Source of the DNA: a virus
Strand: one strand, 5' to 3'
IMG/VR virus record: IMGVR_UViG_3300002835_000007
Location: 1-25,747 of that record
Length of the DNA: 25,747 nt
Positions 12,965 through 16,555 of this stretch are shown piece by piece (within the stretch, counting starts at the first letter, position 1; each line of letters begins with the position of its first letter). Under the pieces are notes generated by a model. The model searched no databases, was not told the DNA's origin, and worked only from the letters and a program-made list of their open reading frames with translations. Both the position numbers and the translations under genes were made by a program.

Positions 12965-13786
12965 ATGAGTTATAGAGAATTAGATACAATATTATACGTT
13001 GATAAGATTAGCGTTGGGTATGAAGGAAAAACAATTCTTAAAGATATTTCAATCATTGAGAAAAATATAGTAAGAGATGGTCACGATTCCACTGGACAAA
13101 CAATTGCGGTGTTAGGTCGTTCTGGTAGAGGTAAATCTACATTGTTCAAAGCGTTGACTGGATTGGTTAAACCAATGTCTGGCCAGATTTTGATAAGTGA
13201 TATGGCTACAGAAGTTGCAGATGATGCAAAAATATTGGCTGAAGGTGATGTAGGGTTTGTTGACCAAAAATACACTTTGTTCAGACATAAAACAGTATAT
13301 CAGATTTGTCAATATGCATTAAGAAAAAGTAAAACGACAAAACAAGAGAAAGATAAGTTGATTACTGAGTTTTTAACTGAATGGGGTTTATTAGAACACA
13401 AAGATAAATACTCATGTGAGTTATCTGGTGGTCAAAGACAAAGAACTGCAATCATTGAGCAAATGTTATCATCTAAACATTTTATGATTTTGGATGAACC
13501 ATTCTCTGGATTGGACGTTGGAAACATTGAGAAAGTTAAAACATCTTTCCAAAAGATTTTGGATGCTGACGAATATAACACAATCATATTTTCAACACAC
13601 GATATCAGATTGGCTGCTGAATTGGCTGATAGTATTTATATTATTGGTAACCCAGAGGGTACAACTGAATATTCAACAGTCTTAAAACACTATGATTTAA
13701 AGAAAATGGGATTAGCTTGGACACCATATGGTGAGGGTCATAGAAAAGTGGTTGCTGACATAAAAGAAATATTATTAAAATCGTAA
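12965..13786 (+). CDS. ABC transporter ATP-binding protein, 273 aa
   Basis: All catalytic motifs are present: Walker A GRSGRGKST (51-59), Q-loop Q101, signature LSGGQRQR (153-160), Walker B FMILDEP (173-179), D-loop SGLD and switch histidine in FSTHD (H212). The N-terminus is longer than in a minimal NitT/TauT ATPase, and residues 230-273 form an extra C-terminal tail. With the permease it would form the inner-membrane ATPase complex. An intact active site in a phage implies real use of ATP. Confidence 0.95.
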   Translation: MSYRELDTILYVDKISVGYEGKTILKDISIIEKNIVRDGHDSTGQTIAVLGRSGRGKSTLFKALTGLVKPMSGQILISDMATEVADDAKILAEGDVGFVDQKYTLFRHKTVYQICQYALRKSKTTKQEKDKLITEFLTEWGLLEHKDKYSCELSGGQRQRTAIIEQMLSSKHFMILDEPFSGLDVGNIEKVKTSFQKILDADEYNTIIFSTHDIRLAAELADSIYIIGNPEGTTEYSTVLKHYDLKKMGLAWTPYGEGHRKVVADIKEILLKS

Positions 13787-15843: not shown

Positions 15844-15874
15844 TTGCATATGTTAAAAATAGTTCATACATTTG
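15844..15874 (+). promoter_or_regulatory. Bacteroidetes-type promoter of the third tRNA array
   Basis: TTG 15844-15846, 20-nt spacer, TACATTTG 15867-15874. Transcription should begin a few bases before the RNA element at 15889. Confidence 0.82.
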
Positions 15875-15888
15875 TAAAAGAAAAATAA

Positions 15889-15951
15889 AAGATAGCTTCA
15901 GCAATTTCACAACTATCAAACTTTTAATTTGAATCAGAAAATGCTATCTTG
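15889..15951 (+). ncRNA. Intron-like element enclosing a lone Lys-type anticodon arm (unit E)
   Basis: AAGATAGC (15889-15896) pairs perfectly with GCTATCTT (15943-15950). TTCAGCAA (15897-15904) follows the first strand, as in the other four copies. Between them is a complete 5-bp anticodon arm TCAAA-CTTTTAA-TTTGA (15916-15932) with T33 and TTT, but no D arm, T arm or acceptor. It is the first structure in the transcript that continues into tRNA-Tyr. It could be a remnant of a permuted tRNA-Lys or a functional cassette. Confidence 0.6.
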
Positions 15952-15958
15952 ATTTATT

Positions 15959-16039
15959 GGAGGGTGGCCGAGTGGTTAAAGGCGGCAGACTGTAAATCTG
16001 TTCTCGTAAGGGTACGGGGGTTCGAATCCCTCCCCTCCA
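15959..16039 (+). tRNA. tRNA-Tyr (GTA)
   Basis: Class II tRNA with anticodon stem CAGA/TCTG, loop CTGTAAA (GTA), long variable arm, T loop TTCGAAT and acceptor GGAGGG/CCCTCC. A T-A pair could extend the acceptor by one base on each side. Confidence 0.92.
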
Positions 16040-16051
16040 ACCAAAAATTAT

Positions 16052-16428: not shown

Positions 16429-16555
16429 GGGGGTGTTGAAATGTTAGATAAATCACATTCTGCCTTTTAGATTAAAGAATGTTTGCAGCAAAATCAAAAT
16501 TATTCACGCAAACTGTAAATTTGATAAAACGTTGGTGCAATTCCAGCCGCCCCCA
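16429..16555 (+). tRNA. tRNA (GTA anticodon, Tyr-like) interrupted by about 55 nt
   Basis: Acceptor GGGGGTG/CGCCCCC, short D stem TTG/TAA, T stem GTTGG/CCAGC with a deviant loop TGCAATT, A73. The 5' half ends TC (27-28) at 16454. After the insert (16455-16509), AAA-CTGTAAA-TTTGA restores a 5-bp anticodon stem TCAAA/TTTGA with anticodon GTA. The insert starts with a hairpin ACATTCT/AGAATGT (16455-16461, 16476-16482) followed by TTGCAGCAA, a one-base variant of the shared motif. There is no long variable arm, unlike the Tyr gene at 15959, so charging identity is uncertain. Confidence 0.65.

Follow-up and report, generated by a model that had tools for sequence, protein, structure and literature searches.

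Anatomy and setting of the element at 15889-15951

The DNA analysed here (25,747 nt, hereafter the window) comes from a virus record of 205,931 bp. ARAGORN called 19 tRNA genes in the window, and all Rfam tRNA matches of the whole record fell within it. Its protein genes include an apparent ABC-type permease and ATPase (12191-13786), with a neighbour (10284-12122) that has an OmpA-like C-terminal domain. The features around the element at 15889-15951 are listed in Table 1 together with four related elements of the window. The sequence-only reading had described this element as an 8-bp stem, the motif TTCAGCAA and a canonical Lys TTT anticodon arm, starting about 15 nt past a -7 box. The description was confirmed: all eight pairs of the end-closing stem, termed H0, were Watson-Crick pairs, and 15 nt separated the TACATTTG box from the start of H0. 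This box and the TTG at 15844 form what we take to be a Bacteroidetes-type promoter. The arm consists of a 5-bp stem and a 7-nt loop with T33 and A37.

The element holds an anticodon arm only (we call such elements minis) and was called neither by ARAGORN nor by the Rfam tRNA model. Lacking acceptor, D- and T-arms, it is not a tRNA gene. An armless tRNA was considered and rejected, as no CCA follows the 3' arm (H0') even in phages with CCA-encoding tRNAs. Perfect 8-bp arm pairs at the same spacing occurred at 48 of 25,659 window positions, which makes the joint occurrence of stem, motif and arm unlikely. The main evidence for the element is its recurrence and not the rarity of its stem in the window. 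The MFE fold of the RNA alone (z -1.35) missed the arm, which is A/U-rich, so the call of the anticodon arm rests on covariation in the family.

Table 1. Coordinates of the element at 15889-15951, its surroundings and its sister elements in the window.
Feature	Position	Strand	Basis or remark
-7 box TACATTTG	15867-15874	+	sequence; TTG at 15844
H0 5' arm AAGATAGC, end-closing stem	15889-15896	+	sequence; covaries in relatives
Conserved motif TTCAGCAA, candidate Ro-like protein binding site	15897-15904	+	family consensus T[TAG]C[AC]GCAA
Anticodon arm TCAAA-CTTTTAA-TTTGA, exposed tRNA-mimic module (putative)	15916-15932	+	anticodon TTT, Lys-type
H0 3' arm GCTATCTT	15943-15950	+	sequence; conserved G then at 15951
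tRNA-Tyr (gta)	15958-16043	+	ARAGORN; downstream in the same transcript unit as the 15889 element
Sister element A: H0 AAGATTA, TTCAGCAA, permuted tRNA, H0'	7134-7263	+	7/7 acceptor pairs (G-U included)
Sister element B: H0 AAGATTG, TTCAGCAA, permuted tRNA, H0'	7307-7431	+	7/7 acceptor pairs (G-U included)
Sister element C: tRNA-Pro-like RNA	6013-6138	+	H0 hairpin and TTCAGCAA (6078-6085) interrupt the anticodon arm
Sister element D: tRNA-like RNA GGGGGTG/CGCCCCC	16429-16554	+	arm CAAA-CTGTAAA-TTTG, H0 hairpin ACATTCT/AGAATGT, variant TGCAGCAA

Sister elements on the same scaffold

Exact copies of TTCAGCAA were found elsewhere in the window at 6078, 7142 and 7315, and the variant TGCAGCAA at 16484. 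The tRNA bodies of sister elements A and B are ordered with the 3' half before the 5' half; one of the two is Asn-type with GTT and the other has the loop ATGGATA, and neither was called by ARAGORN. Their acceptor arms covary between phages (CAGACT/AGTCTG in L012 vs ACTGTCC/GGGCGGT in the window). The same order of halves is known from algal and archaeal circularly permuted tRNA genes, but no bulge-helix-bulge was seen in the sister elements, which as far as can be told are Y RNA-like rather than spliced. Counterparts of the tRNA-Pro-like sister element C carry AGG in L012, and CGG with C1-G72 in L140. Sister element D, with its GTA loop, was overlooked by both ARAGORN and Rfam. A BLAST search of cultured phages gave no close relatives of window positions 7080-7440. 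Between the two permuted elements lies a hairpin CTCTG...CAGAG (7264-7306) that is kept in L012, L024 and L072, and immediately 3' of them (7442-7520) is a tRNA whose anticodon loop is irregular (ARAGORN 'ttta').

Conservation and size of the RNA family

Phage loci were scanned for TTCAGCAA followed by the core of the arm. About 16 distinct phage loci were found to hold a Lys-type mini with the same arm; their H0 sequences are quite different, among them AAGATAGC, AGGGTGGT, AGGATCCT and AGAGTGAT, and the complement was present each time. In loci chosen by the arm alone, H0 reached at least 7 bp in 16 of 17, with about 11 different H0 sequences; L079, a locus beyond the roughly 16 with an intact stem, has a damaged H0. 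The loci thus do not show the random loop drift that the sequence-only reading had set beforehand as grounds for refutation. Nor did its suggestion of a decayed permuted tRNA survive. Such a remnant without function would share its scaffold with the permuted tRNAs of the same genome and lack acceptor, D- and T-arms, as the element does; the arm is nevertheless kept in independent loci of unrelated phages where H0 was replaced with compensating changes, and the minis of other phages have other, equally regular loops within one family of arms with T33 and R37. The conservation of the arm beside a compensated H0 refutes decay, to which we give next to no credence.

A scan with the arm left unspecified, together with elements found incidentally, gave 167 distinct scaffold elements. 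A hairpin with a 7-nt loop was present inside 119 of these (shuffled interiors: mean 39, maximum 52), and an arm with a 7-nt loop, T33 and R37 inside 88 (shuffles: mean 6.2, maximum 12). Stems of at least 5 bp were found in 97 elements for a loop size of 7 and in 10-33 for any other loop size. The pairs of the arm were Watson-Crick in 80-89% of cases vs 32-72% with shuffled partners, and at each of the five positions of the arm stem pairing exceeded that in 500 partner shuffles. The reversed pattern gave no match in 49 records vs about 78 for the forward pattern. A search of 257 Gb of genomes from bacteria and archaea gave three matches to the arm pattern, none of which had tRNA context or a real H0. 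The 15889 element is not a chance occurrence and belongs to a large family of phage RNAs, whose cultured-phage members include those of Vibrio phage KVP40 and E. coli K-12 phage garuso.

What the scaffold carries varies: a single anticodon arm, an anticodon arm with a T-arm, or a permuted tRNA body. The anticodons of the minis were TTT (33), TGT (14), GGA (8), GTT (6), TCT (5) and others including GTA; these frequencies are partly biased by the search patterns, and the TTT count is inflated by the scan that specified the arm. Distinct anticodons within a phage are no strict rule, as duplicates occur in two phages. In one set of near-identical phages the sole difference is the anticodon arm of a permuted tRNA, CTCCTAA (CCT) in L137 and L151 vs CTCTTAA (CTT) in L146. 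This modular arm swap, which may be ordinary recombination or selection, is what an anticodon-arm donor exchanging arms between RNAs might leave behind. No positive evidence for a donor was obtained in the analysis, and the arms of the minis are A/U-rich, unlike those of the tRNAs of the same phage; we consider a donor very improbable.

Two further arrangements were met in phage genomes. In Cronobacter phage S13 (L471, 12704-12946), CCA-ending tRNAs annotated as a 121-nt tRNA-Ser and a 113-nt tRNA-OTHER are interrupted by the hairpin CAAACTGAYAAGTTTG-TATTCAGCA. A permuted tmRNA (RF04321, 96 bits) lies at 7158-7351 of the phage contig L132.

Co-occurrence with a Ro60-like protein

The TROVE profile (Pfam PF05731) gave no match in 18 records, and the link to Ro was reached through DUF2828 instead. 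A DUF2828 protein is encoded in 20 of 24 large scaffold-carrying records vs none of 18 scaffold-free records, with one further record (G095) being ambiguous. The Fisher p value of 2e-8 is uncorrected for phylogeny and overstates the case because the records are not phylogenetically independent. Three records (G010, G016 and G038) carry the scaffold without a DUF2828 gene. The 205,931-bp record of the window also has no DUF2828 gene; it may be a fragment, and the gene is present in G077, a close relative of the window's phage.

Seven records have between one and four scaffold RNAs upstream of the DUF2828 start codon at a distance of under 250 bp, and scaffold RNAs are likewise upstream of DUF2828 in L178, L273, L125 and L279. 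Among cultured phages, the scaffold is near the DUF2828 gene in garuso, Los1, Archie, EF5, phiN3 and S13. KVP40 has a DUF2828 gene and, about 7 kb away, the mini GCAATC(T)TTCAGCAA...GGATTGCTG. In many Bacteroidota-type phages the scaffold RNAs are not adjacent to the Ro-like gene, and in the window no Ro gene adjoins the RNAs.

A sequence search of DUF2828 against PDB gave no significant match. An AlphaFold2 model of modest confidence (mean pLDDT 72) was compared with PDB structures, and the top ten matches were all Ro60/TROVE proteins. Along its length the model aligned to 9kop (Z 17.5, 402 aligned), 2nvo (14.8), 1yvp (14.4), 9l5y (Ro60 of Thermus phage phiLo) and human Ro60 (Z 12.4-17.5 for these structures); the next rows were vWA-only (Z at most 10.9). 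Foldseek alone gave vWA matches only (E at least 0.011). DUF2828 homologues were found in 681 phage records, and those of mycobacteriophages are annotated as 'Ro-like RNA binding protein'. The predicted fold thus suggests that phage DUF2828 is a Ro60-like protein. The phage Ro-like proteins, including those of mycobacteriophages and phiLo (9l5y), would belong to the same candidate family of protein partners, and the literature searched describes no anticodon-arm RNA partner for them.

Resemblance to YrlA and Dictyostelium class I RNA

Window positions 7153-7265, which take in most of sister element A, matched the YrlA model (RF02553) along its full length (positions 1-114) with 39.3 bits (E 2.2e-7 in a search space of 361 nt; Rfam cut-off 69 bits), and a related element in L439 scored 29 bits. 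Minis of other phages matched the Dictyostelium class I RNA model (RF01414) with at best 40.1 bits (E 1.4e-7; cut-off 41.5), the best E value of this model on scaffold-free records being 0.027. Every Rfam match of the scaffold RNAs was below the curated cut-off. The 15889 element scored with neither the YrlA nor the class I model, and its membership in the family therefore rests on the shared scaffold.

In YrlA, the partner of Rsr/Ro60, an end-closing stem bears a tRNA-like module whose acceptor is capped, and the RNA is encoded beside a Ro60-fold protein. Sister element A has such a module, and in other phages scaffold RNAs often lie by the gene for the DUF2828 protein with its predicted Ro60 fold. 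The 15889 mini differs in that it carries an anticodon arm only, a part outside the YrlA matches. It has the stem formed from the 5' and 3' ends that marks Y RNAs, in the shape of the covarying 8-bp H0. Class I RNAs are 42-65 nt long with an end-closing stem, the ends AAG...CUGU, a variable interior and a conserved 11-nt motif (consensus CCUUACAGCAA) adjoining the 5' arm (PMC7919456). The phage minis share this anatomy: in the 15889 element TTCAGCAA lies beside the 5' arm of H0, and other phage members have TACAGCAA. Class I RNAs differ in being amoebal and developmentally regulated and in having a known binder, Rnp1A/Cibp, and the text consulted mentions no anticodon arm (PMC7919456).

A further explanation is that H0 and TTCAGCAA form a splicing signal for joining the permuted tRNAs and tRNA-Pro across the junction, a mini then yielding a small circular arm or titrating the enzyme. 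The Asn-type permuted copies complete their anticodon stem only when the 3' half is ligated to CG (for example CG/AGG-CTGTTAA-CCTCG, the slash marking the junction), the anticodon stem of the tRNA-Pro copy is split by the hairpin, and ACCA is encoded in one permuted copy. However, the position of the junction within the tRNA varies, the capped and permuted shape is shared by YrlA, and the Ro link accounts for the scaffold without a splicing enzyme. We know of no splicing of YrlA. Overall, a splicing signal is improbable. RtcB-based splicing in particular was rejected, RtcB being absent from 17 of 17 records.

Proposed identity of the 15889 element

We consider that the 15889 element is probably a Ro60-associated Y-like RNA of the phage, with an exposed module that mimics a tRNA anticodon arm. 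This identity, missed by the sequence-only reading, draws on the covarying RNA family, on the co-occurrence and adjacency of the Ro-like gene, on the Ro60 fold of the predicted model and on the matches to YrlA and class I RNA. The element would be a small phage-encoded noncoding RNA of about 62 nt, in which a putative binding module for the phage Ro60-like DUF2828 protein is made up of H0, the neighbouring TTCAGCAA and the opposing A-rich strand. Physical binding to this protein is inferred. The remainder of the RNA would be an exchangeable effector module, here an anticodon arm of tRNA-Lys(UUU) type and in the sister RNAs other anticodon arms, an anticodon arm together with a T-arm, or a complete tRNA body in capped, permuted form, as in bacterial YrlA. 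The RNP would hold the tRNA mimic in reach of factors that bind anticodon arms, the likeliest being host anticodon nucleases, which would be competed off real tRNAs, or steps of repair and surveillance after cleavage.

Possible functions of the anticodon arm

A role of the minis as decoys for anticodon nucleases, as put forward by the sequence-only reading, is plausible as one function. It was retained because the tRNA-like domain of YrlA has been proposed as a competitive inhibitor of an anticodon nuclease (PMC7790460), and because minis with UUU and UGU, the two commonest mini anticodons, correspond to the best targets of AriB. The tRNAs that this PARIS nuclease cuts best are Lys(UUU) and Thr(UGU), depletion extends to Asn(GUU) and Thr(CGU), and viral tRNAs have been suggested to tie up immune effectors (PMC12409363). 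The overlap of the mini anticodons with AriB targets is a correlation; the mini anticodons GGA and UCU are outside the AriB target set, and AriB contacts reach beyond the anticodon arm (PMC12409363). A decoy for Lys only was rejected as the whole story, since minis of other phages have TGT, GGA, GTT, TCT, GTA and other loops. UUU and UGU are also prominent among phage tRNAs that evade cleavage by PARIS, retron and PrrC (PMC12409363, PMC11555353). Those tRNAs and the minis have in common anticodon-arm features that would be aimed at tRNA-cutting defences, but the former are full functional tRNAs and the minis cannot be charged. The literature searched contained nothing on permuted tRNAs in phages or on phage anticodon-arm decoys.

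The main rival to the decoy is a role of the RNP in surveillance or repair, in which the arm of a Ro-associated Y-like RNA would position damaged tRNAs, or a nuclease or ligase, or would control access to the Ro ring. In Deinococcus a Y RNA tethers PNPase to Rsr, and cut tRNAs trigger the rsr-yrlBA-rtcBA response (PMC7790460); a PF09414 RNA ligase is encoded in 12 of 17 carriers of the scaffold. On the other hand, RtcB was found in none of the 17 records, and the display of single anticodon arms of many identities is not readily explained by such a role. We regard it as rather unlikely, though less so than the other alternatives weighed here.

More tentatively, the family could be seen in a wider context, although we hold this view to be less likely than not. 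Ro60-type RNPs of large phages, with a set of small RNAs that each show one anticodon arm, or else a capped tRNA body, might be a counter-defence against tRNA-cutting immunity, and the Dictyostelium class I RNAs might belong to the same RNA family, with one scaffold serving phage, bacterial and amoebal Ro-type RNPs.

Implications

If the proposed identity is correct, it would provide a concrete RNA partner and a candidate binding motif for the Ro-like proteins of hundreds of cultured phages, whose function is so far not known. The published idea of anticodon nuclease inhibition by tRNA-like Y RNAs would become directly testable, and could be tested now because members of the family occur in the cultured phages KVP40 and garuso. 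It would also suggest an evolutionary identity for the long-puzzling class I RNAs of Dictyostelium.
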